A stretch of DNA of 51,613 nucleotides from Limnobacter sp. CACIAM 66H1 (GTDB lineage: Bacteria; Pseudomonadota; Gammaproteobacteria; Burkholderiales; Burkholderiaceae_B), in contig NZ_LUJK01000020.1 in the NCBI RefSeq assembly GCF_001601825.1, forward strand, positions 1 to 51,613, in the 5' to 3' direction. Both the position numbers and the translations under genes were made by a program. Shown here piece after piece: positions 6,783-20,805 of the stretch; position 1 is the stretch's first letter; each line of letters starts with the position of its first letter. Under the pieces are notes generated by a model. The model saw nothing but the letters and a program-made list of their open reading frames with translations, had not been told where the DNA came from and searched no databases.

Positions 6783-9700
6783 TCAATTGTGCTTCGAGTA
6801 AAAGCGATAGTGTCCAGAGTGCACCGATGCTCCTGAATGTTTAAGCAGTACGGTGTCTCTGCTGGCCTGTTTGGAATCCAGGTCTTTGACTCGGTCCCTG
6901 TCGCTCACAAAATCAACCTTCGAACCCAGTGACTCAAAGAACGCGGTAATGATTTGTCGGTCACCTTGAACCTCGGCCATACCCGAGAGTTCTTTCAGGT
7001 TTTGTGCCAAGGCGTTGGCTTCGGTTGTGCCCTCATTTTTGATTGGACGGGAGGCGCCGACAATCTCCAGAACCTGATCTGTTAGCCGAGGAATGGCAAG
7101 TTGCAGCGTCATTTTTTGCAAGTTGGTTTCAACTTGCGCGTCGCCAACTCGATACCCCAGGTTTTTTGCTTCATCCAGTGCTTGATAAATATCCTTCACC
7201 TCATCAACATTTTTAGGCCAATACGGCTCATAGCCATCCGCCAGCATTCCGGCCTTTTTGGCGTCTGGCTGAATTTTAGTGGCCCAATCAGCTTTCACCT
7301 TTTCCAGCGCATCGAACACGCGCCGTGATACATCTTGAATATCCGAATAAGCAATTGCGCTGGCGTTCGCTGCACGCAACCAGCAGCGATTCCCCTGGCC
7401 AGATACCTCTTGAATTTTGCGCCCACTCGCTGACAGCAGCTTGTCGATGATGGCGATTTCAGACATAGGCTTGATCGGGCTGCTTGTTTTAGCTGAACTT
7501 GTGGAACGATTGACCTTGATCGGCTGATCATTGGCAGCCCCGATCAATAGTTTGGAGGGCGACTGATCGATTGAGGAGGACCACTCAATCACCTTCGGCA
7601 AGGGCTTTCCGTTGCCACAAGACTTCCAAAGCTTTTGCACAAAACTTTCCACCTCAACCAAGGTCCTCTTGAGTTGTGGGCTAACTTGTCCTTGCAATTT
7701 GACAGTCAGGCTTTTTCCATCCAGATAGTCAGTCAAAGCCTGCGCATTACTTGCATCTTTTGAACCCAACAGCGGCTTTAACTGCCTTTTCAATTCAAAG
7801 ACTATTGCGATGTTCTCTTTTTTTCCAAACTGCTGGCGCAAACGCTCCTTCTGATTAATGGTGGAGAAATAACTCTGAATCGATGCAAAACTCTCGCGAA
7901 TTGCCTTGCCCCCAGCCAGGTTCACGAAATTACCCACGTTCACCGAAATGCGTCGCAAGACACCTCCGCGACGATTCGCTGCAATTTCTTTAGAAATTTC
8001 CCTTGCTGCGGTCACCGACTGTTCTGCGCCGAGGGTATCTCTTTCTGCAACCCACAAGGCGGCCTTTTTATGAAAATTACTCAACTCCTGCTTGAACGAT
8101 TCCAGACCTTCAACGCCAAGCTTGCCATTCTTCTGCTGCCCGGCCAGCTCCACCTTGTTTTCAAAGTTTTTCAGCGTCTTCATGAATTGTGTGACCTCGA
8201 GGTGATGGGTGGTCAACAAGTCATTGGGCATGGCCGCCAGAATCAGCGAGGCCGCCTCCACAGCATGTTGGTCAGTAATCACGGCATGGGTGATATCAAC
8301 CGGTTTTCCAGCTTTAAATACCTCCGCCTGCAAAGTTCCCGACAAACTGCCTAGTACCTTCAACCGGGCTCCCACATGCTCCTGAGATTTTCGCGAATAG
8401 CTGGACTCCACCTTGTAAGCCAGCGACGGTGCACTCAATGCCAGGCTTTTTGAATTGAAACCGGCTGCGCTCACATTTGCAGCCGCAAGTTGATGAATGA
8501 ATATCCTGCCGTTTTTATCCAACCCTTGTGGTGAATCACAATTTGCCGTGCCCAGAAACGTCAACACTTTTTCCGAGCGCTCACTGCCCGGGGTTTTCAG
8601 TGCACCCCCCAACTCCGCAAGAAAAGGCAGCTTGTCCCCGCGCACTGTTGAATGCGTGGACTTACCCTGATTGTCAAAATTATTGAACCAGGACCCAAAC
8701 TCGGACAAACAAACTTTCAACGCAGCTGATCGCGACGATGCGCCAGCACGTCCGTATTCCAATGCCTTATTCAAGCTGAAACCATCCTGGACTGACGGTG
8801 ATTCAACACCATTGGCCAACATCGGCAAACTGCAAGGCAGCGCCTTGGCTTCAGAAGCAGGCACTGCAGCGAACCTACCGGATAAGCCGTTGAGGGCTTT
8901 CAAATCTGTTTCTGCAGCACACACAGTGCGCAAAAACGTTTCGATTTTTTTCTTCTGGTCTTCAACACCTTTGATATTCTTTTCGCACGCATCGAATTGA
9001 TTCATCAACTCAAATACTTTCGTACTGTCCCGCCCTTCACCTGTTTGCTCTAACTGTTTTTGAAGTCCAGACTTTTTCTCTTGCTCCTGAGCCTCAAGCT
9101 CATCAAGCTTTTTTGCAAGGGCATTCAGCTCGACCTGATTCAACTCAACCCTGTTCTTGTTGAGCTGCACAACATTCCGAATGGAAGATTCAAGTTTGGA
9201 CTGAATCATTTTGTAACCTTGAGCAGCCTTCTCATGCATGATTTGCTGGGACTTGCTTGCTCGATACCATTTCTGCACAACCTTCGCTGCTGCATTTTGG
9301 GAAACGTCGGCTGGTTCAGCCAATGCTGATGAAGACCCGCCAGCCGAGTGCAAAGCCTCGATGACTGAACGCTGAACGCCAATCGTGTGGCCTTGCTGCC
9401 TGTTACTCAAGTCTGCTTTCCGGATAAGGTCTATGACCGACTTCTTTTCATTTGAAGTGACATGAGCCAGTTCCTTGACCCTACGCTCAACATCAGTGAG
9501 CGTTTGTTCAAACGAACCCATATCTGACAGCTTGGCAATTCTCTCACTCGCCTCGTCCTTGGCTTTTTGGAGTAACTCAGCAGCCTTGTCCGATTCGAGC
9601 TGCTTTTGATACTGCGCGAGTTTCGCAGGCACACCGTCCCTGACAGCAGCCTGCTGCAAAGCATTCAATGCGGCAGCTTGATCGGGTGCAGCGCTGAAAA

Positions 9701-10205
9701 AACTACCAAGCCACCGCAACCATGAACTTGCCGGCTTGGTACTTGTTTCTGGTTTCGCCAACGGCACAGGGTTGGTGAGTGTGGAGGCGGCTGATGAAGG
9801 TTTGGCTGTGGAGATGGATGAGGCGACAGTTGTTGTATCAGGCGAAGAAGTTGAACTCACCGGGACTGGGTCGGTTCTCTTGAGCATATCGACAATCATG
9901 GACTTGAGTTCTTCTGCTTTTTGTCCACCACCTGACTCTACTTTCTTGACCAAATCATCAATCAAGGAATTGAGTGCCTCACTGATTTCTTCAGTGCCAT
10001 TTATCTTGTAACACGCTTTCATCATGTCAATAACATGGGGTTGTTCAAGGGGTGTTTTGCCAAAGTTGGCATTCAACTGAGTGGCAGCCAAACCAGGGGT
10101 GACTACCGCTTGAACACCTGAACCTGACTTGCCTGTTGCAGCGCTGGACGATCCTGTGCGCTGACTGATGGCACTGGGTACTGCGGTGGTGGTTGAAGTG
10201 GTCAT
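6783..10205 (-). CDS. Large effector-like protein (1140 aa) with C-terminal cysteine-protease-like domain
   Basis: I do not recognise this protein as a known family. Residues 1-160 are Ser/Thr/Ala/Pro-rich and look disordered, with no Sec signal. Residues about 160-430 are helical and charged with a coiled-coil stretch (340-425); within it, residues 305-316 (AAAKVVQKWYRA) resemble a calmodulin-binding IQ motif. The last 205 residues contain a Cys box (GQGNRCWLRAANA, Cys941) and, at the extreme C-terminus, a His box (HSGASVHSGHYRFYS, His1132). Those boxes have the order and look of the Cys and His boxes of CA-clan proteases such as USP or OTU deubiquitinases and papain. Taken together this suggests a secreted protein acting on a eukaryotic host or another cell; that role is inference. 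Its start overlaps the upstream 159-aa gene by ATGA, so the two are translationally coupled. Confidence 0.7.
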   Translation of the reverse strand: MTTSTTTAVPSAISQRTGSSSAATGKSGSGVQAVVTPGLAATQLNANFGKTPLEQPHVIDMMKACYKINGTEEISEALNSLIDDLVKKVESGGGQKAEELKSMIVDMLKRTDPVPVSSTSSPDTTTVASSISTAKPSSAASTLTNPVPLAKPETSTKPASSWLRWLGSFFSAAPDQAAALNALQQAAVRDGVPAKLAQYQKQLESDKAAELLQKAKDEASERIAKLSDMGSFEQTLTDVERRVKELAHVTSNEKKSVIDLIRKADLSNRQQGHTIGVQRSVIEALHSAGGSSSALAEPADVSQNAAAKVVQKWYRASKSQQIMHEKAAQGYKMIQSKLESSIRNVVQLNKNRVELNQVELNALAKKLDELEAQEQEKKSGLQKQLEQTGEGRDSTKVFELMNQFDACEKNIKGVEDQKKKIETFLRTVCAAETDLKALNGLSGRFAAVPASEAKALPCSLPMLANGVESPSVQDGFSLNKALEYGRAGASSRSAALKVCLSEFGSWFNNFDNQGKSTHSTVRGDKLPFLAELGGALKTPGSERSEKVLTFLGTANCDSPQGLDKNGRIFIHQLAAANVSAAGFNSKSLALSAPSLAYKVESSYSRKSQEHVGARLKVLGSLSGTLQAEVFKAGKPVDITHAVITDQHAVEAASLILAAMPNDLLTTHHLEVTQFMKTLKNFENKVELAGQQKNGKLGVEGLESFKQELSNFHKKAALWVAERDTLGAEQSVTAAREISKEIAANRRGGVLRRISVNVGNFVNLAGGKAIRESFASIQSYFSTINQKERLRQQFGKKENIAIVFELKRQLKPLLGSKDASNAQALTDYLDGKSLTVKLQGQVSPQLKRTLVEVESFVQKLWKSCGNGKPLPKVIEWSSSIDQSPSKLLIGAANDQPIKVNRSTSSAKTSSPIKPMSEIAIIDKLLSASGRKIQEVSGQGNRCWLRAANASAIAYSDIQDVSRRVFDALEKVKADWATKIQPDAKKAGMLADGYEPYWPKNVDEVKDIYQALDEAKNLGYRVGDAQVETNLQKMTLQLAIPRLTDQVLEIVGASRPIKNEGTTEANALAQNLKELSGMAEVQGDRQIITAFFESLGSKVDFVSDRDRVKDLDSKQASRDTVLLKHSGASVHSGHYRFYSKHN

Positions 10206-10782: not shown

Positions 10783-13700
10783 TTAGCCTCTACTGCTGTA
10801 AAACTGTGCCAACGCGGCTGCAGTGTGACCCGCCTTCTTGCCTTTGGCTTTCGCAATTTCCTGTGGGCTACCCTGTGCCACCAACTGCCCACCGCCAATG
10901 CCAGCCTCGGGACCCATGTCGATCACCCAATCGGCTTGGGCAATCAAGTCAAGGTCGTGTTCAATCACCACCACCGTGTGGCCCGCATCCACCAGCCTGT
11001 GCAGTACGGCAATCAGCTTTTCCACATCGTTCATGTGCAGGCCAACCGTGGGTTCGTCCAGCACATACAAGGTCGGGGGGCTCATTTGTACACCCGCCTT
11101 GTTTTCGCGTACTTTCACCAGCTCGGTCACCAGCTTGATCCGCTGCGCCTCGCCACCGCTCAGCGTGGGGCTGGGCTGGCCAATAGTCAGGTACCCCAAA
11201 CCAACGTCGTTCAGCAGTTGCAGGGCTTGCGCGATCGCCGGATGCGCTTCAAAAAACGGCGCTGCCTCTGAACAACTCATGTTCAAAATTTCCGCAGCGG
11301 TTTTGTCGCGCCAGGTGACTTGCAAGGTTTCCGGGTTGAATCGTTTGCCGCGACAGGCTTCACACACCACTTTCACGTCAGGCAGGAAGTTCATCTCTAT
11401 GGTTTGCATGCCTTGGCCGTCGCACACCGGGCAACGGCCGGGCCCCGCATTGAAACTGAAACGGTTGGCTGCAAAGCCTCGCATCCGGGCTTCGATGGTG
11501 TCAGCCAGCACATTGCGAATTCGGTTCCAAAAGCCAATGTAAGTGGCCGGGCAACTGCGCGGTGTTTTGCCAATCGGAGTTTGGTCCACCTCCAGTACAC
11601 GGGCTACTTGATCAGCACCTTCAATCGCATCGCAGGCAAACCAGTTGTGTATGGGTTTGCCTTTCTTGTTTTGGTTCAGCACATACTGGCGCATATTGGC
11701 CAATAAAATATCGCGCGCCAAAGTCGATTTTCCGCTACCTGACACACCAGTAATGGCGACCAAACGTCCCAGCGGAATGTCCACATTTAAACTTTTGATG
11801 TTGTGCAGTTTTGCCCCTTTAATGCTCAATCGGGGGGTGAGTTTTTCCACCGGGCGCTTGGGCTGTAGCAAATGCGGAATCGGATTTTTCAAATAGCGGC
11901 CTGTCAGCGAGTTTTTGTCCGCTGTAACCTCGGCCACCGTGCCTTGAGAAATAATTTCGCCTCCCAGCTTGCCTGCACCAGGACCGATGTCGACCAACCG
12001 GTCAGCACGTTTCATGGTGTCAATATCGTGCTCGACCACCAACAGCGTATTGCCCTTGGCCCGAAGTTCTTCAAGCGCATCCAGCAGGCGGTGGTTGTCA
12101 CGAGTGTGTAGGCCAATGGTGGGTTCGTCCAGCACGTAACACACACCGCGCAGGTTGGTGCCCAGCTGGCTGGCCAAGCGAATGCGCTGTGCTTCACCAC
12201 CACTCAGAGTAGGCGCGCTGCGGTTCAGGTGCAGGTAATCAAGACCCACCTGTTTCAAAAACTTCAATCGCCCGGCCATTTCGATGCGAATGTCTTTGGC
12301 AATCGCTGTTTCGCGTTCGTCCAGTTCGAGCTGGTCCACCCACTGCAAAGCATCGCTGACGGTTTGATCAGCCAGTTCGGCGATATTGCTGTTCTTGAAC
12401 TTCACAGCCAGCGCAGTGGGGTTTAGGCGTTGACCATTGCAGGAGCCACACACCATGCTTTCTCGCAAATAGCTTCCTTCGTCATTTTCAGCATTTTCGT
12501 CTGCGCTTTTGTCTTGCTCAGAAAGCCACTTGCCTTCTTCACCTGTGGTTTCAGCATCAAACCCCTCTACCTCCTCACCCACGCCAAAGCAACTGGTACA
12601 CCATCCATGTTTGCTGTTGTAACTGAACAAGCGCGGGTCGAGCTCGGGAAAGCTGCGTGCGCAACTCGGGCATGCCCGCTTGGTGGAGTAAAACCGAATG
12701 GTGGGCGCTTCACCCTTTTTACCAGGTGCCTCAACCATGACTGTGCCTTTACCAAACTCAAGCGTTTGGACCAGCACCTCGCGCAATTCTTTTTCTGTTT
12801 TGGCCTGCACAAGCAGGGTTTTCACAGGCACCTCGATGTGGTGTTCCTGATAGCGGGCCAACTTCGGCCAGGGGTTGGTGGGCACGTACTCCCCATCCAC
12901 GCGCAGGCGTTCATAACCGCGGTCCACGGCCCATTTTGCAATTTCGTTGTAAATGCCTTTGCGGCCCTGCACCAGTGGTGCCAGCAAAGTGATTTCCTGC
13001 CCTTTGTAATGCTGCATGATTTGCGCCAGCATGCTGTCCATGCTTTGCGGAGCAATGGGCACCTCGCACGTGGGGCAATGCTGAATGCCCAACTTCACAA
13101 ACATGAGGCGCAGGAAGTGGTACACCTCGGTCACCGTGGCGACTGTACTTTTCCGGCCACCCCGACTGGTGCGCTGCTCGATCGCCACGGTGGGGGGAAT
13201 ACCAAAAATGGCATCCACATCAGGCTTGGCTGCAGGTTGCACAAACTGTCGAGCGTAGGCATTCAGGCTTTCAAGGTAACGGCGCTGGCCTTCGCTGAAC
13301 AAAATATCAAACGCAAGGGTGGATTTTCCGCTGCCGGAAGGCCCGGTAATGACAGTCATCTTTTCCCGTGGAATGGTCAGGCTGACATTTTTCAGGTTGT
13401 GCTCACGCGCATGCAAAATTTCAATGCCGTCAGTCAGGCCGCGCTTGTTGTGTTTGGTCTCCAGTCCGTACAGGGCCGCCGCCTCGGCCACCAGGTGATC
13501 ACTGCCTTTGTTTAAATCGGCAGCATGCAGCAGATTGGTTTGCGCAAGGTATTGTTTGATCGCAACGCCCGTGTGGCTCGCTTTGTTTTTTGCAAGCTGT
13601 TCGGGCGTGCCCTGGGCCACCAGTTCACCCCCGTATTCGCCCGCCTCGGGTCCAAGGTCGATAAGCCAATCTGCCGCGCAGATCACATCCAGATTGTGTT

Positions 13701-16419
13701 CAACAATCAACACACTGTGCCCTGCTTCCTGCAACAAACGCAGCGAACGCATCAACTTGGCCACATCGTCAAAGTGCAAACCAGTGGTCGGCTCGTCAAA
13801 CACAAACAGGTCACCTCGCTTGGCCACTTTTTGACCGCTGGCGGTGAGTTTCAGGTTAGCCAGAAAACCCGCCAACTTGAGTCGTTGTGCTTCGCCACCG
13901 CTGAGCGTGGGTACAGGCTGCCCCAAACGCAAATAATTCAGCCCAACCTGTGCCAGCGGTTGCAGTGTTTTTAGTAGCGCAGAGTCTTTTTCAAACAAAT
14001 CAAGCGCCTGGTCTACGGTCAGTTCAAGTACCTGCGCCATGTTCAACACTTGGCCTTTTCGTTCAAGCGTGACTTCCAGTGCCTCTGGCCGGTAACGTGT
14101 GCCATTGCATTCGCCGCAGCGCAAATAAACATCACTCAAGAACTGCATTTCAACATGTTCAAAACCATTGCCACCACAAATGGGGCAGCGGCCATCGCCA
14201 CTGTTGAAACTGAAGAAGCCGGGTTTGTAATCCCGCTCTACAGCAATTTTTGTTTTGGAGAACAGTTTGCGCAGTTCATCAAACGCGCCGACATAGCTGG
14301 CGGGGTTGCTTCGCGTTGTTTTGCCGATTGGGCTTTGGTCAACAAATGCCAATTCGGAAATGAGTTCAACACCCTCCACGGAATCGAACTCACCGGGGGC
14401 CTCTGTGGGCTCACCTTTTATTTTCTTGATCGCGGGCACCAGTACATCTTGTACCAAGGTGCTTTTGCCTGAACCTGAAACACCTGTGAGTACCACCAAT
14501 CTGTTGAGCGGCAGTTTGAGATCGATGTTTTTCAAGTTGTTGGCGCGCACACCGGTCAAGGTAATGTGCTCTGTGGAATCGCCCAACGGCTCGATGTATT
14601 CCACCACCTTCAGTTCACCCTTCAAGTAGCGGGCAGTCAGCGAGTTTGCCTGAGCGATTTTGGCGGGCGCGCCATCAAATACAATATTGCCCCCGGCTTC
14701 ACCCGGGCCCGGGCCAATGTCTATGAGCCTGTCAGCCTGGTTCATCAATTGCGGGTCGTGCTCCACCACCACCAAGGTATTTCCTGCCTCTTTCAAACGC
14801 TGCATGGCCTGCGCCACGCGCGCAATATCGCGGGGATGCAAGCCGACGGAGGGTTCGTCCAATACAAACAAGGTATTCACCAGCGAACTACCCAATGCCG
14901 TGGTCAGATTGATTCGCTGTACTTCACCACCACTGAGGGTTCTGCTTTGCCTGTCCAGCGTCAAATAACCCAAACCCACTTGAATGAGGAAGCCCAGGCG
15001 GGTACGAATTTCCTGAAGCACCAGGTCACTGGCTTCATCGAGTGCACCGGGCAGTTGCAGGTTTTTGAACAGCTGCGCCACCTTCAACAGCGGCATTTGC
15101 ATGATTTCATGAATGCTGTGCTTGCCCGAATCGCTGGGCAACTTCCAGAGCAGGGAATCGGGCTTCAGACGCGCGCCGTTGCAGTCACCACACGGGGTGT
15201 AACTGCGATATTTGGACAACATCACGCGCACGTGCATTTTGTAGGTACGGCTTTCGAGCCATTCAAAAAAACGGGCTACACCATAGAACAAGTGACCGTC
15301 CCAATTCCCATCAAAATTGGCATCGCCCTCAATCACCCACAGCTTGTGTTCTTCGGGCAAATGTTTGTAAGCGATGTCGGTGGCGATACCGCGTTTTTTG
15401 GCAAATTTCACCAAGTCTTTCTGGCAGCTTTTAAAACTTTCCGTGGTCCAGGGCTTCACCGCGCCCTCCTCCAGCGATTTGTTTTCGTCGGGAACCACCA
15501 ATCCGTAATCAATACCGATGACACGTCCAAAGCCGCGGCAGGTGTCACACGCACCCAAGGGTGAATTGAAGCTGAAGTGGCTGGGCAAAGGGCTTGAATA
15601 ATCCAGATCACAAGTGGCGCAATGCAGGCCCTCGGAAAAACGCCAAGGCTGTTGCTCGTCATCGCCCTCGTCAGGCAATGCAAACACATTCACCTTGCCC
15701 TTGCCCCTGTGCAAGGCGCTGGCCACAGCGTCACTAAAGCGGCTTTCCTCAACACCCGCGACGCGGAAACGGTCTTGCACCACATCCAGCAATTTCTCCA
15801 CGATGCTGCGGCCTTTTTTAATCGGCGTTTCGCGGTGAATACGGGTGTAGCCTTGCGCGCTCAGGAAGTCTTCAATTTCCTGAGTCGTAAATTTTGCGGG
15901 TACACGCACCGGGAATGTAATCACCAAACGCGGGTCGTTCTGTGCGGCGGCCTTGTCCAGTATCGATTGTTTGATGGTGGCTACGGTGTCTTCACGTACC
16001 CACTGGCCACACTGTCGGCAATGCAAATGAGCCGCGCGGGCGTAAATCAACTTCAGGTGATCGTTGATTTCGGTCATGGTGCCCACGGTGCTGCGGGAGG
16101 TGCGCACAGGGTTGGCTTGGTCAATTGCGATGGCAGGCAAGACGCCTTCGATGCTATCTACATCGGGTTTGTCCATGCGGTCGAGAAACTGGCGCGCATA
16201 AGGCGAAAAGGTTTCGACATAGCGACGCTGACCCTCTGCATACAGGGTATCGAACACCAATGAGCTTTTACCACTGCCCGACACACCCGTGAACACGGTA
16301 ATTTCACCGGTCCTGATGTCAATGTCGACGTTTTTGAGATTGTGCTGCCGCGCCCCCTTGATACGAATCACATTGCCAAGGTACTGGGAATTCTCGGTTT
16401 TTTTCGCTTTGGTGGTCAT
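10783..16419 (-). CDS. uvrA: Double-length excinuclease UvrA (tandem fusion, four ABC ATPase modules)
   Basis: 1878 aa, twice the usual 940 or so. Residues 1-960 are one full UvrA-like unit and about 995-1878 a second. Walker A motifs occur at 45-52, 646-653, 1026-1033 and near 1560; ABC signatures (LSGGEVQR or LSGGEAQR) occur at 495-502, 839-846, near 1440 and near 1770. Each half keeps zinc-binding Cys pairs, including the FSFN-x-G-x2-RCP-x2-C insertion. A canonical UvrA works as a homodimer that finds DNA lesions and loads UvrB; this protein would be a covalent pseudo-dimer. Chlamydial UvrA has the same doubled size. Whether it replaces or supplements a standard UvrA cannot be told here. 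Confidence 0.92.
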   Translation of the reverse strand: MTTKAKKTENSQYLGNVIRIKGARQHNLKNVDIDIRTGEITVFTGVSGSGKSSLVFDTLYAEGQRRYVETFSPYARQFLDRMDKPDVDSIEGVLPAIAIDQANPVRTSRSTVGTMTEINDHLKLIYARAAHLHCRQCGQWVREDTVATIKQSILDKAAAQNDPRLVITFPVRVPAKFTTQEIEDFLSAQGYTRIHRETPIKKGRSIVEKLLDVVQDRFRVAGVEESRFSDAVASALHRGKGKVNVFALPDEGDDEQQPWRFSEGLHCATCDLDYSSPLPSHFSFNSPLGACDTCRGFGRVIGIDYGLVVPDENKSLEEGAVKPWTTESFKSCQKDLVKFAKKRGIATDIAYKHLPEEHKLWVIEGDANFDGNWDGHLFYGVARFFEWLESRTYKMHVRVMLSKYRSYTPCGDCNGARLKPDSLLWKLPSDSGKHSIHEIMQMPLLKVAQLFKNLQLPGALDEASDLVLQEIRTRLGFLIQVGLGYLTLDRQSRTLSGGEVQRINLTTALGSSLVNTLFVLDEPSVGLHPRDIARVAQAMQRLKEAGNTLVVVEHDPQLMNQADRLIDIGPGPGEAGGNIVFDGAPAKIAQANSLTARYLKGELKVVEYIEPLGDSTEHITLTGVRANNLKNIDLKLPLNRLVVLTGVSGSGKSTLVQDVLVPAIKKIKGEPTEAPGEFDSVEGVELISELAFVDQSPIGKTTRSNPASYVGAFDELRKLFSKTKIAVERDYKPGFFSFNSGDGRCPICGGNGFEHVEMQFLSDVYLRCGECNGTRYRPEALEVTLERKGQVLNMAQVLELTVDQALDLFEKDSALLKTLQPLAQVGLNYLRLGQPVPTLSGGEAQRLKLAGFLANLKLTASGQKVAKRGDLFVFDEPTTGLHFDDVAKLMRSLRLLQEAGHSVLIVEHNLDVICAADWLIDLGPEAGEYGGELVAQGTPEQLAKNKASHTGVAIKQYLAQTNLLHAADLNKGSDHLVAEAAALYGLETKHNKRGLTDGIEILHAREHNLKNVSLTIPREKMTVITGPSGSGKSTLAFDILFSEGQRRYLESLNAYARQFVQPAAKPDVDAIFGIPPTVAIEQRTSRGGRKSTVATVTEVYHFLRLMFVKLGIQHCPTCEVPIAPQSMDSMLAQIMQHYKGQEITLLAPLVQGRKGIYNEIAKWAVDRGYERLRVDGEYVPTNPWPKLARYQEHHIEVPVKTLLVQAKTEKELREVLVQTLEFGKGTVMVEAPGKKGEAPTIRFYSTKRACPSCARSFPELDPRLFSYNSKHGWCTSCFGVGEEVEGFDAETTGEEGKWLSEQDKSADENAENDEGSYLRESMVCGSCNGQRLNPTALAVKFKNSNIAELADQTVSDALQWVDQLELDERETAIAKDIRIEMAGRLKFLKQVGLDYLHLNRSAPTLSGGEAQRIRLASQLGTNLRGVCYVLDEPTIGLHTRDNHRLLDALEELRAKGNTLLVVEHDIDTMKRADRLVDIGPGAGKLGGEIISQGTVAEVTADKNSLTGRYLKNPIPHLLQPKRPVEKLTPRLSIKGAKLHNIKSLNVDIPLGRLVAITGVSGSGKSTLARDILLANMRQYVLNQNKKGKPIHNWFACDAIEGADQVARVLEVDQTPIGKTPRSCPATYIGFWNRIRNVLADTIEARMRGFAANRFSFNAGPGRCPVCDGQGMQTIEMNFLPDVKVVCEACRGKRFNPETLQVTWRDKTAAEILNMSCSEAAPFFEAHPAIAQALQLLNDVGLGYLTIGQPSPTLSGGEAQRIKLVTELVKVRENKAGVQMSPPTLYVLDEPTVGLHMNDVEKLIAVLHRLVDAGHTVVVIEHDLDLIAQADWVIDMGPEAGIGGGQLVAQGSPQEIAKAKGKKAGHTAAALAQFYSSRG

Positions 16420-16501: not shown

Positions 16502-17566
16502 TTAAGCAACCTGTGCAAGCCTGCGTTTGCGAACACCTTGTGCCAAGGTTTCCAGCACTTGCAGGCTGTCGTCCCAGCCCACGCAACCATCGGTGATGCT
16601 TTGGCCGTAAGTCAAAGGCTTGCCGGGTTCAAGGTCCTGGCGACCTTCCACCAAGTGGCTTTCAACCATGACACCCATGATGCGCGCATCGCCGGCGGCC
16701 AGTTGTTCAGCGATGTTCTCGCACACCCCAACCTGGTTCTTGGGAACCTTGCTGCTGTTGCCATGACTTGCATCAATCATGATTCGGGCGGCCAGGCCTG
16801 CTTTGCCAATGTCGGCCGCCGCGGCCTCCACTGACGCTGCGTCATAGTTCGGGCCTTTCCCGCCACGCAGAATAATGTGGCAGTCCTCGTTGCCCGAGGT
16901 GCTGACAATCGCGCTGCGACCCTCCTTGGTTACGCTCAGGAAGTGATGTGGGTGTTGCGCTGCCTTGATGGCATCCACTGCAATTTTTACGTTGCCGTCT
17001 GTGCCATTCTTGAAACCGACCGGACAGCTTAGACCTGATGACAACTCACGATGAATCTGGCTTTCAGTGGTGCGGGCACCAATCGCACCCCAACTGACCA
17101 AATCAGCGATGTACTGTGGGGTGATCATGTCGAGGAACTCAGTTCCCGCTGGCAAACCCAGGCTGTTGATATTCAAAAGCACTTCACGCGCCATGCGCAG
17201 GCCTTTGTTGATTTCAAAGCTGCCATCCAGATTGGGGTCGTTAATCAACCCCTTCCAGCCCACAGTGGTGCGCGGCTTCTCAAAATAGACACGCATCACA
17301 ATTTCCAGGTCTTCTGCGTATTTTTCGCGATACACCTTCAGCTTGTTGGCGTATTCCATCGCTGCCTTCACATCATGGATGGAACAGGGCCCCATTACGA
17401 CGATCAAGCGATCGTCACCACCATGCAGAATTTTGTGGAGGGCCGCACGGCAACCTGCCACTGTTTCGGCAATTGCGGGGGTAATGGGCACGTCTGCGAT
17501 CAAGGCCGCAGGGGTGATCAGTTCTTTAATTTCTTTGATTCTCAAGTCGTCTGTTACCGTGTTCAT
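16502..17566 (-). CDS. aroG: 3-deoxy-7-phosphoheptulonate synthase (DAHP synthase, class I AroG/AroF type)
   Basis: 354 aa, the standard size. It condenses phosphoenolpyruvate and erythrose 4-phosphate, the entry step of the shikimate pathway. Family motifs are visible: VVMGPCSIHD, KPRTTVGWKGLINDPNLDGS, GARTTESQIHRELSSGLSCP, KNGTDGN, IDASHGNSSK and a C-terminal ITDGCVGWDDS. The ATG follows an AGGAG. Upstream on the same strand lie a Phe-rich leader peptide (17677-17763) and a perfect terminator hairpin (17620-17652). Expression is therefore probably attenuated in response to charged tRNA-Phe, which favours a Phe-sensitive AroG identity over the Tyr- or Trp-sensitive paralogues. Confidence 0.94.
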   Translation of the reverse strand: MNTVTDDLRIKEIKELITPAALIADVPITPAIAETVAGCRAALHKILHGGDDRLIVVMGPCSIHDVKAAMEYANKLKVYREKYAEDLEIVMRVYFEKPRTTVGWKGLINDPNLDGSFEINKGLRMAREVLLNINSLGLPAGTEFLDMITPQYIADLVSWGAIGARTTESQIHRELSSGLSCPVGFKNGTDGNVKIAVDAIKAAQHPHHFLSVTKEGRSAIVSTSGNEDCHIILRGGKGPNYDAASVEAAAADIGKAGLAARIMIDASHGNSSKVPKNQVGVCENIAEQLAAGDARIMGVMVESHLVEGRQDLEPGKPLTYGQSITDGCVGWDDSLQVLETLAQGVRKRRLAQVA

Positions 17567-17610
17567 GCCAATTCTCCTGAATGCTGGCGCGCTTTTTGTT
17601 CAAAGTGTCG

Positions 17611-17652
17611 GTTCAAAAAAAAACCGCCAGGAAGTTCAGGCCTGGCGGTTTT
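17611..17652 (-). terminator. Attenuator terminator in the aroG leader
   Basis: On the minus strand this is a perfect hairpin: CCGCCAGG, a 9-nt loop, CCTGGCGG, followed immediately by nine Ts (17623-17615). It lies 25 nt after the leader peptide stop and about 50 nt before the aroG ATG. An intrinsic terminator ahead of the coding region, rather than after it, is the hallmark of attenuation. The complementary A-run also allows it to work in the other direction. Confidence 0.85.
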
Positions 17653-17715
17653 GGGATCTGTTTGAACTATGTGTTTTTACGCACAACCCTCTTCCGCCGC
17701 TTGCCCAAACCAGGC
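17640..17715 (-). promoter_or_regulatory. Predicted antiterminator pairing in the aroG leader
   Basis: Leader codons 17-20 (GCCTGGTTTGGG, complement of 17704-17715) can pair with CCCAAA (17650-17655) and CCAGGC (17640-17645), giving two 6-bp helices with a 4-nt bulge on one side. This pairing uses the first arm of the terminator hairpin, so the two structures exclude each other. A ribosome held at the earlier Phe codons would leave codons 17-20 free to form it; a ribosome reaching the stop would cover them and let the terminator form. Confidence 0.6.
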
Positions 17716-17763
17716 AAAGAAGCCAAAAAAAGCATAAAAAGAGTGCGCGAAATTCGTGTTCAT
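17677..17763 (-). CDS. Phe-rich leader peptide of aroG (28 aa)
   Basis: A 28-codon ORF with Phe at positions 5, 9, 12, 13, 15, 16 and 19, plus Tyr10 and Trp18: seven of 28 residues are Phe, clustered before codon 20. It ends with TAA (17677-17679), 25 nt before the attenuator hairpin. The layout matches known amino-acid leader peptides such as those of pheA and pheST in enterobacteria. The Shine-Dalgarno is weak (TAAAAG directly before the ATG), which is a caution. It is far below normal gene-calling length and will usually be missed. Confidence 0.78.
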   Translation of the reverse strand: MNTNFAHSFYAFFGFFAWFGQAAEEGCA

Positions 17764-17922
17764 CTTTTAAATGTAATCAATTCATGGCCGCTGTGCAAGC
17801 GCGCTAAGCCAAATTCTAACAAGTCGCCGATGGCTGTGGTTGGCATCCCACTGAAAAACAAGGAACTTTGACAGCTTTGGGTCCACTCAGGCGTTCAATT
17901 TCAATACTCCAACCAATGAATC
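17764..17922. other. Divergent promoter region between the aroG leader and the 197-aa gene
   Basis: This stretch, with the leader above, makes up the 356-nt gap between aroG and the next gene. On the minus strand TAGAAT, about 50 nt upstream of the leader ATG, is a fair -10 candidate for the leader transcript, though no good -35 stands at the right distance. On the plus strand there is an exact TTGACA at 17868-17873, but no convincing -10 at 16-18 nt spacing. I see no other gene here. Confidence 0.35.
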
Positions 17923-18516
17923 ATGAGCATGAACGGAATCAACCCAATTCAAGTGAACCCAGTGAATATTGCCCAAGCACCTCCCCAAGCCCAACAGCGA
18001 CCCACGGTGGACGCAGTAAGAACCCTCGCCGTGCAAATCAGGAGGCAAACCGCAGAGTTGATCCCGCTTGCCAACAATTTCTACACAGCATGGATGGTGT
18101 TACCACAAGCGCAGGCCCTCTCCTCTTCCGCATTACAACAACTCAAAAACACCTTTTTGGAAGCCGATGAGGGACATGCAGACTTTCTTCGTAAACTGGA
18201 GAACTGTACTGATGAAGTGCGGCACAATGCCAGAGAGGTCACTCGTTTGGCCATTTCATTGCACAACAACAGCTTCGAGGCACTCGAAATCGCCAGTCAT
18301 TTACTCGAGCGGGGCCCCGGCAACTTGCTGGTGACCACGCCATTGGGGCCTTGGTCTTTGTCAAAGCAGGCCATTGACACCAGCTTGCTTTACCACATCA
18401 CGGGTGATGCTGAGGTGCTGCAAGGCCAACAACCCCAAGACCGAGCCAATCTGGCTGCCTTGCATGCAGAATGGGCGCAAGACGACGCAATCGACCCCTA
18501 TGCGCTTCAACGCTAG
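17923..18516 (+). CDS. Hypothetical protein, 197 aa
   Basis: Not recognised. Residues 1-30 are rich in Asn, Pro and Gln and look disordered; the remainder is amphipathic helical, with no signal peptide or membrane span. Its stop is one base from the tldD stop on the other strand, a tight convergent arrangement. The polar N-terminus followed by a helical body resembles the unknown proteins at 1742 and 10202, and together they may belong to a lineage-specific set of secreted or scaffold proteins. That grouping is inference from composition, not homology. Confidence 0.6.
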   Translation: MSMNGINPIQVNPVNIAQAPPQAQQRPTVDAVRTLAVQIRRQTAELIPLANNFYTAWMVLPQAQALSSSALQQLKNTFLEADEGHADFLRKLENCTDEVRHNAREVTRLAISLHNNSFEALEIASHLLERGPGNLLVTTPLGPWSLSKQAIDTSLLYHITGDAEVLQGQQPQDRANLAALHAEWAQDDAIDPYALQR

Positions 18517-18517
18517 T

Positions 18518-19988
18518 TTACTGAGTACCGCCCATGACCAGCCCATCAATGCGCAGGGTGGGCTGACCCACACCCACAGGTACGCTTTGACCTTCCTTAC
18601 CGCAAGTGCCCACGCCATCATCAAGCGCCATGTCATTGCCAACCATTGAAATTTTGGTAAGCGACTCTGGGCCGTTGCCGATCAAGGTTGCACCCTTGAG
18701 TGGGTAGGTGATTTTGCCGTTTTCAATTTTGTAGGCCAGCGAAGCTGAAAACACAAACTTGCCACTGGTGATGTCCACCTGACCACCGCCAAAATTCACG
18801 GCATACACGCCATCTTTTACGCTGGCGATAATTTCCTCGGGCGTTTTGTCGCCGTTCAACATGTAAGTGTTGGTCATGCGGGGCATGGGCAAATGCGCAA
18901 AGCTCTCGCGTCGACCATTGCCAGTCACCGGCATTTTCATCAGGCGCGCATTCGTAATGTCTTGAATATAGCCTTTCAAAATACCGTCTTCAATCAGGGG
19001 GGTGCATTCGGTTTTGTTGCCTTCATCGTCAATATTCAGGGAACCCCGGCGGCTGGCCAAAGTACCATCATCAACAATCGTGACCCCCTTGGCGGCCACT
19101 CGCTGGCCAATCATGCCGGAAAAAGCACTGCTGCCTTTTCGGTTGAAGTCGCCTTCCAGACCGTGGCCAATCGCCTCATGCAGCAAAATACCAGGCCAAC
19201 CTGAGCCGAGCACCACGGTTTGAGAACCAGCGGGGGCAGGACGAGCCTCCAGATTGATCAAGGCCTGGTCCACTGCGGTGTGAGCATGGTGCATCAGGAA
19301 TGCATCGTTGAAATGACCAAAATCATAACGACCGCCCGCCCCCCGACGAACCTGTCTCGCGACGGCCTTTTTGTTCTACCACTACGCTGACATTGATTCG
19401 AACCAAAGGACGTACATCCGCGGCGAGTACACCATCACTGCGAGCCACCAATACCACATCATAGGCGCCCACAATATTGGCCATCACTTGCTTCACGCGC
19501 TTGTCGCGCTTGCGTGCAAATTGTTCAAGACGCTTGAGCAGATCTACTTTTTCTGTCGATGTCAGCGTGGGAATCGGGTTCAGGGGGCTGTAGAGTGCCC
19601 GGCTTTCAGCGCCAGCAAAGCCCTTGCCCGTTTTCAGATTGCGATTGGCGGTTTTGCCCAAGCTTGCAATTTCACGCACCGACTTCGCCGCTGCCAAGAT
19701 GGGTTTGAAGGCAATGTCGTCGGAATAGGCAAAAGCTGTTTTATCACCGCTGACAGCGCGCACGCCTACGCCCTGTTCAATGTTGTAGCTGCCCGATTTA
19801 ACAATCCCTTCGTCCAGCGACCAACCTTCAATGCAACCGTACTGAAAATACAGATCGGCGAAATCCACCTTGTGCGAGAAAATTTCACCGAAAGCCTTCT
19901 GGATGTGGCCTTCATCAATACCGTAGGGGGTCCACAACAGGCTTTGGGCAATGGCGAGATTGGAAATGGCGGGGTCTACTACTTTCAT
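18518..19988 (-). pseudogene. tldD: Metalloprotease TldD, split by a one-base frameshift
   Basis: Two ORFs in different frames together cover TldD. The N-terminal part (start ATG 19988, MKVVDPAISN) runs to the conserved Ser-Ser-Gly-Gly-Gly motif and stops at about 19324; the C-terminal part, in the +1 frame, continues with Arg-Tyr-Asp-Phe-Gly-His and ends at 18518. The C-terminal part holds the metal-binding HEAIGH (HExxxH). In the plus strand run CCGCCCGCCCCCCG (about 19331-19344), removing one base would restore an uninterrupted 490-aa TldD. TldD works with TldE/PmbA in peptide maturation and antitoxin degradation. A real mutation, a sequencing error in the G/C run and a programmed shift are all possible; error or recent mutation is most likely because both halves are otherwise intact. 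Confidence 0.85.
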
Positions 19989-19998
19989 GTTGAATCCT

Positions 19999-20805
19999 TT
20001 AAAGCACGCGGTGCGTAAGCGCGGGCAGGCTGTTTCGCACATCAACTATCTTAGCAGGGTCAAGCTGACCCAGCACTACCCCCTCCCCCTCTTGCAGCAC
20101 ATTCTCGACCTCGCCCCACGGGTTCACCAACATGGAATGACCCCAGGTGCGGCGCCCATTCTCATGTACACCGCCTTGTCCGCAGGCCAGCACATAACAC
20201 TGGTTTTCAATTGCACGAGCCCGCATTAGCACCTCCCAGTGGGCTCGACCCGTGGTGTAGGTAAATGCAGCGGGCATCACGATTAAATCAACAGGCCCCA
20301 TGGCGCGGTAAAGTTCGGGAAAACGAAGGTCGTAGCACACGGACAAGCCTATTTTGAAGCCCTCCACATCGGCGACCACTGGCGTGGCCCCGGGCAGCAG
20401 TACACGCGCTTCATCGTAGCTTTCCTGCCCCTTGGTAAAACAGAACAGGTGAATTTTGTCGTACCGGGCCGTACATTCGCCCTGCGGATTGAAGACCAGC
20501 GTGGTGTTGAAAACGCGACCCTCTACGTCGCTGGCAATTGGAAGGGTTCCCGCCACAATGTGGACGTTGCGCACCACGGCCTGATCGGCGAGGAATTGCT
20601 GGATTGGCCCTTGGCCGTATGCTTCGGCGATCGCCAACTTGTCGGTGTCTTTGTGGCCCATCAAGCAAAAGTATTCTGGCAACAGCACCAATTGCGCGCC
20701 CTGTTTGGCAGCCTGACCGATCAGGCGCTGCGCAATGTCCAGGTTCCGTTCAAGGTCAGGTGTTGCAATCATTTGCAAACTTGCGACGGTCATGGAGTGG
20801 CTCAT
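19999..20805 (-). CDS. Nitrilase-superfamily amidase (Nit1/omega-amidase-like)
   Basis: 268 aa from ATG 20805. The carbon-nitrogen hydrolase triad is complete: Glu44 (LLPEY), Lys117 (YDKIHLF) and Cys157 (GLSVCYDLRFPELYR). The motif context matches Nit1-type deaminated-glutathione amidases, which repair a side product of transaminases. Substrate assignment is inference. The frame is open to 20871, but that would overlap yhdP deeply; the ATG at 20805 has AAGGA upstream and sits one base after the yhdP stop. It is followed 10 nt later by tldD, giving an order yhdP-nit-tldD common in betaproteobacteria. Confidence 0.88.
   Translation of the reverse strand: MSHSMTVASLQMIATPDLERNLDIAQRLIGQAAKQGAQLVLLPEYFCLMGHKDTDKLAIAEAYGQGPIQQFLADQAVVRNVHIVAGTLPIASDVEGRVFNTTLVFNPQGECTARYDKIHLFCFTKGQESYDEARVLLPGATPVVADVEGFKIGLSVCYDLRFPELYRAMGPVDLIVMPAAFTYTTGRAHWEVLMRARAIENQCYVLACGQGGVHENGRRTWGHSMLVNPWGEVENVLQEGEGVVLGQLDPAKIVDVRNSLPALTHRVL

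Follow-up and report, generated by a model that had tools for sequence, protein, structure and literature searches.

An aromatic-rich leader peptide and a predicted transcription attenuator precede the DAHP synthase gene aroG in Limnobacter and other Burkholderiales

How do Limnobacter and its relatives control entry into aromatic synthesis? Escherichia coli has three DAHP synthase isozymes and two repressors. In the portion of PMC5343134 on which we draw, TyrR and TrpR are described as conserved in gammaproteobacteria and absent from other classes of Proteobacteria, and the literature that we searched gave no account of how the bacteria considered here exert this control. We followed up a sequence-only reading of a 51,613-nucleotide stretch of Limnobacter sp. 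CACIAM 66H1 (contig NZ_LUJK01000020.1; the whole stretch is termed the window), which had placed a Phe attenuator ahead of aroG. Codon content, RNA architecture, and conservation support a predicted ribosome-mediated attenuator at this place.

The elements of the locus follow one another on the minus strand in the order predicted promoter, leader ORF, hairpin with T run, Shine-Dalgarno sequence, and aroG, with tldD farther upstream on the same strand. The aroG gene (16502-17566) encodes the class I DAHP synthase AroG. Its product scored 585.9 bits against NCBIfam NF006723 (cut-off 568) and also matched Pfam DAHP_synth_1, and the gene is preceded by the Shine-Dalgarno sequence AGGAG at 17574-17578. 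The nearest named loci were those of Limnobacter species, with AroG identities of 89 to 98%. Searching the whole genome with PF00793 returned two matches, aroG and a gene for 3-deoxy-8-phosphooctulonate synthase located between the genes for CTP synthase and enolase, and the latter was rejected as a second DAHP synthase. PF01474 returned zero matches in this genome. aroG is the sole DAHP synthase gene found in the genome, and the proposal that control is exerted at the entry point of the pathway holds in this respect.

The leader, MNTNFAHSFYAFFGFFAWFGQAAEEGCA, runs from ATG to TAA at 17677-17763 on the minus strand. As had been claimed, translation gave 28 codons with seven Phe between positions 5 and 19 (positions 5, 9, 12, 13, 15, 16, and 19); Tyr is at position 10 and Trp at position 18. 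The putative control codons are codons 9 to 19 (F Y A F F G F F A W F; 17707-17739), at which the aromatic class is conserved in Limnobacter and in the Burkholderia/Cupriavidus and Achromobacter/Bordetella groups. Such a composition is rare in this DNA. Among the 438 ATG ORFs of 12 to 40 amino acids in the window, only the leader has seven aromatic residues within 10 amino acids (one other has six), and only the leader has seven Phe within 15. As controls we used first-order Markov resamples of the window, which are not exact shuffles. In 40 such copies, with about 637 ORFs of this size each, no ORF had seven aromatic residues in 10, and ORFs with at least six occurred about 0.05 times per copy. 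A short ORF rich in end-product codons upstream of a biosynthetic gene, which is a general feature of attenuators, is present at this locus. There is also a second aromatic ORF in the window, MKFFYRQFYFLCPRSN (6749-6699, minus strand), with six aromatic residues in 10. It lies antisense inside a 203-amino-acid plus-strand ORF, and the only listed ORF of at least 100 amino acids downstream of it on its own strand is a TTG-start ORF of 105 amino acids in the same antisense stretch.

Between the leader and aroG, AAAACCGCCAGG (region 3; 17641-17652) and CCTGGCGGTTTT (region 4; 17620-17631) enclose a 9-nucleotide loop and form a hairpin with 12 of 12 bases paired and a folding energy of −18.4 kcal/mol. 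It is followed by nine T (17615-17623) that overlap the A-T end of the stem, so the perfect hairpin with nine Ts described by the sequence-only reading was borne out. A standard promoter and terminator scan of the window detected neither element; the hairpin was missed because the scan rule takes loops of 3 to 8 only. To follow the stem across the family we aligned 44 representatives, all selected as carriers of both leader and terminator and with a difflib similarity below 0.93. In this alignment, 96.9% of the cells were paired (the MAFFT alignment places row L085 wrongly at the terminator), and with the partner offset by one to three columns, pairing fell to 35 to 63%. Changes on both sides occurred at four pairs and in nine cells, and none of 500 shuffles reached either level. 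The further pair types were less telling, as 25 of 500 shuffles attained their level. As examples of compensatory change, G-C replaces A-T in Achromobacter/Bordetella and two Cupriavidus rows, and Duganella and Rugamonas show a swap of AG to TC. Compensatory hairpin changes in relatives, which the sequence-only reading had proposed to look for, thus occur in the terminator across the family. Sequence and covariation point to an intrinsic terminator between the leader ORF and the structural gene.

We then compared the region upstream of aroG within the genus, where a conserved Phe-rich ORF had also been predicted. aroG was present in 16 Limnobacter genomes, including that of the window. Of the 15 congeners, one (L002) has a contig that ends 47 nucleotides before aroG, which left 14 that could be tested. 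Twelve of these (L003-L013 and L015) carry a leader and a terminator before aroG, as the prediction required. The two without a leader, L014 and L016, are divergent, incomplete assemblies (65% and 85% complete) whose AroG proteins are 80 to 83% identical. The aroG leader is identical in L003 and L007. Within the genus, Phe and Tyr replace each other at codons 13 and 19, and two species have Trp in place of Gly20.

Beyond the genus, a similarity search yielded 518 related stretches, of which the best 80 were kept. This set is biased towards similarity, and its four Limnobacter members overlap the congener set. The other genera were Noviherbaspirillum, Herbaspirillum, Undibacterium, Massilia, Duganella, Collimonas, Burkholderia, Paraburkholderia, Caballeronia, Cupriavidus, Ralstonia, Achromobacter, and Bordetella. 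The element was found before aroG in 74 of these best 80 of 518 loci, mostly from Burkholderiales. The terminator rule detected a hairpin in 72 of the 80, each preceded by an aromatic-rich ORF (in another frame in L056); for L074 and L097, a script located the leader, and the hairpin was recognized on visual inspection. The six loci of the best 80 that lack the element are L039, L053, L069, L091, L093, and L094. By eye, the stretch before aroG in four loci that have no attenuator (L016, L039, L093, and L094) resembles the end of a tldD gene.

A survey of the order was meant to give a less biased count. We searched 120 genomes, of which 94 matched, and the listed places with at least 59% identity numbered 91 in 81 genomes. 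A place was counted as a carrier if an ORF with at least six aromatic residues in 10 amino acids was followed by a terminator. By this rule, 24 of the 91 listed aroG places, in 24 of the 81 genomes, carry the element. The remaining 67 had no leader at the threshold used; four of them (L141, L155, L205, and L208) have a hairpin and a leader with four or five aromatic residues, and the other 63 are without the element by these rules. The same rule found no carrier in 91 reverse complements or in 455 Markov versions. In a group of DAHP synthase paralogues with 47 to 54% identity, none of the 19 places examined (of 30 listed) had the element. Ten genomes had two aroG places, and in six of these the leader was on one copy; in none was it on both.

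From aroG-linked sequences we built R1, a covariance model that spans the entire element, and searched 200 genomes of the order with it. R1 matched in 65 at an E value of at most 0.001, and 52 of these matches extended over the full length. We fetched 30 of the 52, including that of the window: all 30 stand directly before aroG, and leaders could be read in 29. Most partial matches resemble plain terminators. The R1 matches show an association with aroG and should not be taken as a full census. Of 184 genomes sampled across the class, four had an R1 match at an E value of at most 1e-5, two within the order and two outside it. The latter two belong to one family in another order (G224 and G360; loci L169 and L170), and in them a leader and a terminator precede aroG. 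The leaders read MNAARASFYFWYYFPKPLAEEGLRSP and, from a GTG start, VNTPCARFYRWYYFPKPPAEEGVRAF. Their presence in another order could reflect old inheritance or a transfer of aroG together with its leader. The tails of the two leaders, KPLAEEG and KPPAEEG, resemble the Achromobacter/Bordetella tail. In the genome of the window itself, R1 found one full-length element. A regulon of such elements was considered and rejected, as the next-best match (E value 3.2e-5, partial) is a terminator between convergent genes for a beta-N-acetylhexosaminidase and a peptidylprolyl isomerase-like protein; R1 gave 20 weaker matches besides.

An attenuator also needs an alternative pairing that engages the terminator arm, and here our folds departed from the sequence-only reading. 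In the ribosome-free RNA from codon 17 onward, before the last arm is made, the pairing drawn in that reading reached −19.8 kcal/mol versus −26.4 kcal/mol for another structure, and it was rejected as the main antiterminator. The more stable structure consists of three helices. An outer arm pairs GUUUGGGC (17703-17710; part of the minimum-energy fold) with GCCUGAAC (17634-17641; mostly terminator loop). The core pairs GGCGG, which is region 2 and spans codons 22 to 24 (17694-17698), with CCGCC (17644-17648), which are the core bases of the first terminator arm. An inner arm is predicted from the fold to pair GGG (17687-17689) with CCC (17653-17655). The GGCGG:CCGCC core is family-wide, and the region 2 copy matches the terminator arm throughout the family. 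The outer arm extends the structure in Limnobacter, with perfect pairing in L009 and, judged by eye, weaker pairing in L008, L011, and L012. As the core is nearly invariant, it carries little covariation. In the predicted pre-terminator fold, the region 3 core was paired upstream in 44 of 44 representatives versus 104 of 220 shuffles (47%). The specific pairing of the region 2 and region 3 cores was scored in 37 of the 44, and the misses are rows in which the script had placed region 2 a few bases off (four Limnobacter rows, L065, L085, and L088); the window was redone by hand. These data predict an alternative pairing that uses the terminator arm and starts just past the control codons.

Folding the whole RNA gave a different balance. 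With all of it present, the terminator won in 39 of the 44 representatives and the antiterminator in five. For the window we modeled six stall codons: the terminator won at codons 9, 12, 15, 16, and 19, and antitermination was favored at equilibrium only for codon 13. The terminator is stable once its second arm exists; therefore, the switch must act during transcription, by kinetic antitermination. With a ribosome placed at the stop codon, only the terminator remained in the window fold (−19.0 kcal/mol). The untranslated leader ORF folded on itself at −28.5 kcal/mol and hid region 2.

The start of the leader transcript was assessed with approximate promoter weights, scored without a null model. 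The best-scoring promoter within 70 nucleotides of the leader ATG has a predicted −35 element, TTGCAC (17793-17798, minus strand), and, 17 nucleotides past it, a predicted −10 element, TACATT (17770-17775), that ends 6 nucleotides before the ATG. All six Limnobacter sequences scored, representing five distinct promoters, had their best promoter at this same distance. The distance was 8 nucleotides in L046 and L049 (Bordetella and Achromobacter), 7 in L034, 6 in L083, and 22 to 45 in most others, and several Cupriavidus and Ralstonia rows had no convincing promoter in reach (scores of 7.5 to −0.3). A stricter consensus scan of the window found no promoter at the leader. A Shine-Dalgarno-like word preceded the leader ORF in only 2 of 45 sequences versus 42 of 45 for aroG; for L062, with 1 nucleotide upstream of the leader, the test is void. 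Because the predicted −10 element ends 6 nucleotides before the leader ATG, leaderless mRNA may apply in Limnobacter, and the leader is plausibly translated from such an RNA. A comparable case is the trpL attenuator of Sinorhizobium meliloti, whose transcript has the leader ATG at its very start and is leaderless according to the part of PMC7298713 consulted. That system has a trpL leader and trpE(G) as its target, while the start in Limnobacter is a prediction.

One group gives indirect support for translation of the leader, through synonymous change at its control codons. Its members, the 11 distinct leaders of Burkholderia/Cupriavidus, vary in four of six aromatic codons, and they do so at the third base only (TAT/TAC and TTT/TTC). 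In Achromobacter/Bordetella and in Limnobacter, changes at aromatic codons are either synonymous or exchange Phe and Tyr, and over all codons tested the third base is not clearly favored. In Oxalobacteraceae, the codons preceding a Phe-Tyr-Phe core change freely. Overall, a third-base excess was clear in one of the four groups tested, and in the other three the variable sites were spread over the codon positions. In L048, L054, L078, and L079, the frame is shifted after the aromatic cluster and the region 2 bases around GGCGG are retained. This suggests that codons are what matters in the upstream half of the leader and RNA bases in the downstream half.

Judged from sequence and modeled folds together, a classic ribosome-mediated transcription attenuator is very probable at this place, one that would respond to aromatic aminoacyl-tRNAs and so set aroG transcription. 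RNA polymerase would start at the leader ATG or within 1 to 2 bases of it, and a ribosome would follow, translating the 28-codon peptide. When charged tRNA-Phe (or tRNA-Tyr, possibly tRNA-Trp) is scarce, the ribosome would stall in codons 9 to 16. GGCGG and the outer arm could then engage the first terminator arm while the second has yet to be made, and aroG would be transcribed. When aromatic amino acids are plentiful, the ribosome would reach the stop codon and cover region 2; the hairpin at 17652-17620 could then form, and transcription would end near 17615. If the leader is left untranslated, the self-folded RNA would hide region 2, and termination would be favored again. We infer that the charging of tRNA, through the position of the ribosome, sets transcription in response to the amino acids.

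Which of these amino acids are sensed bears on the name of the element. In 72 distinct leaders, Phe occurs in all 72, Tyr in 69, and Trp in 35. The leaders had been selected by their Phe, Tyr, and Trp content, by which Tyr and Trp are somewhat favored, and the 28 extra leaders omit L170 and other carriers. It is possible, though we lean away from it, that tRNA-Phe alone matters, with Tyr and Trp codons as tolerated substitutions. Phe outnumbers every other residue by a wide margin over the 72 leaders (20.5%, versus 9.0% for Tyr and 2.5% for Trp), and AroR, the Phe-Tyr-Phe leader of Corynebacterium glutamicum, answers Phe and not Tyr in the account excerpted from PMC11802643. Against a sensor of Phe alone stand the near-universal Tyr, even granting the selection by total aromatic content, the alternating Phe-Tyr kept in the Burkholderia/Cupriavidus and Achromobacter/Bordetella groups, and the placement of 34 of the 41 Trp residues inside the Phe/Tyr cluster. 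The claim of a Phe attenuator was right in that Phe dominates, but the label looks too narrow for a leader that is aromatic rather than Phe-only. The preferred reading, attenuation on aromatic codons, could also operate through the antiterminator as first drawn, of 17715-17704 with 17655-17640, which we consider improbable. That pairing exists as drawn, in two 6-bp helices with a 4-nucleotide bulge that use the first hairpin arm, and has −13.7 kcal/mol by itself. Among single helices, GCCTGGT with GCCAGGC, which makes up half of this pairing, ranks first in the window and in most Limnobacter rows; in L011, a related pairing ranks first. Apart from its lower stability, the drawn antiterminator is not family-wide: in L012, in L013, and in every non-Limnobacter locus, the top-ranked single helix is no part of it. 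Its 5' arm corresponds to codons 17 to 20, which a ribosome at Phe16 should cover.

Two further explanations would assign the hairpin or its products another role. The hairpin might be a plain terminator, an insulator against upstream transcription, with the Phe-rich ORF a by-product of T-rich DNA. tldD does lie upstream on the same strand, and poly-T easily yields Phe codons. We nevertheless regard this as highly unlikely, given that none of the 455 Markov versions produced such an ORF with a terminator, that third-base changes preserve Phe and Tyr in the Burkholderia/Cupriavidus group, that the region 2 copy fits the terminator arm across the family, and that a promoter is predicted directly upstream of the ORF. 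Scarcely more probable is a main role in trans for the terminated RNA or the peptide, like that of rnTrpL/peTrpL in S. meliloti, with attenuation as a secondary effect. The S. meliloti system likewise starts at its leader ATG, as the cited portion of PMC7298713 has it. However, the peptide outside the aromatic cluster differs widely among genera, and several relatives have a shifted frame past the cluster.

Among known systems, the pheL-pheA and pheST attenuators of E. coli and its relatives share a Phe-rich leader, an antiterminator, and a terminator with the element described here. Unlike them, this element has another target gene, mixes in Tyr and Trp codons, and has a Shine-Dalgarno sequence before few of its leader ORFs. 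The corresponding Rfam family, Phe_leader (RF01859), was the best-scoring Rfam match in the region with the full model, at 28 bits, and did not reach the curated threshold of 55 bits. It scored 30 bits in one of 14 carrier regions; the other 13 gave no match at E values up to 1, and 14 non-carrier regions gave zero matches. At curated thresholds, Rfam had zero matches in the window and in ten relatives. The element of the window is placed before aroG, a gene of the shared pathway.

DAHP synthase genes under attenuation have been described elsewhere. In C. glutamicum, a Phe-Tyr-Phe leader peptide (aroR) precedes the DAHP synthase gene aroF, and transcription rises when Phe is limiting (PMC11802643, PMC4046766, as excerpted). 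The element before aroG resembles this system in having a Phe/Tyr leader before a DAHP synthase gene. It differs in phylum, and in the excerpts on C. glutamicum only Phe-Tyr-Phe is reported as control codons, for one of two DAHP synthases. By its description in the passages of PMC8632094 available, the Acholeplasma uORFC-13-1 motif before aroF likewise combines a predicted Phe-containing upstream ORF with a terminator before a DAHP synthase gene. In those passages it is reported only from Acholeplasma and environmental sequences, with at least one Phe codon in its consensus, unlike the Limnobacter element; they also cite a hypothesis of attenuation for E. coli aroF. The novelty implied by the sequence-only reading is lessened by DAHP synthase attenuation that in these partial sources is known in Corynebacterium and predicted in Acholeplasma (PMC11802643, PMC4046766, PMC8632094). 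What stands is the predicted Burkholderiales aroG element as a widespread new case, well supported by sequence comparison. Our literature search, which covered part of the likely sources, found no report of such an element in Burkholderiales.

A recurrent aroG attenuator offers a concrete, testable answer on the control of aromatic-pathway entry for many Burkholderiales. The mixed Phe/Tyr/Trp code is a natural test of whether one leader gates on several amino acids, and the missing Shine-Dalgarno sequence a test of attenuation on leaderless RNA. Tentatively, and with more doubt than conviction, we propose that one leader with intermixed Phe, Tyr, and often Trp codons, translated without a Shine-Dalgarno sequence (in Limnobacter, from the 5' end), may register the charging of all three aromatic tRNAs simultaneously, and that a single DAHP synthase gene may thereby do the work of E. 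coli's three isozymes and two repressors. On this proposal the element would be old in Burkholderiales, would stay with aroG, and would be common to another order of the class.

Several minor observations concern the surroundings of aroG. In the window, tldD (18518-20045, minus strand) is split over two ORFs that cover positions 9-206 and 226-480 of the NF008006 profile, and a hexosaminidase gene of the same genome (L105) is also split. These splits are either frame breaks or assembly errors. Between tldD and aroG, on the opposite strand, lies a 197-amino-acid ORF (17923-18516, plus strand) with zero Pfam matches, and a 1,140-amino-acid ORF at 6783-10205 (minus strand) also had zero Pfam matches. 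The uvrA gene that adjoins aroG (10783-16419, minus strand) encodes 1,878 amino acids, about double the usual UvrA length of about 940, with three ABC and two UvrA-interaction stretches by Pfam, which suggests two UvrA units in one chain.
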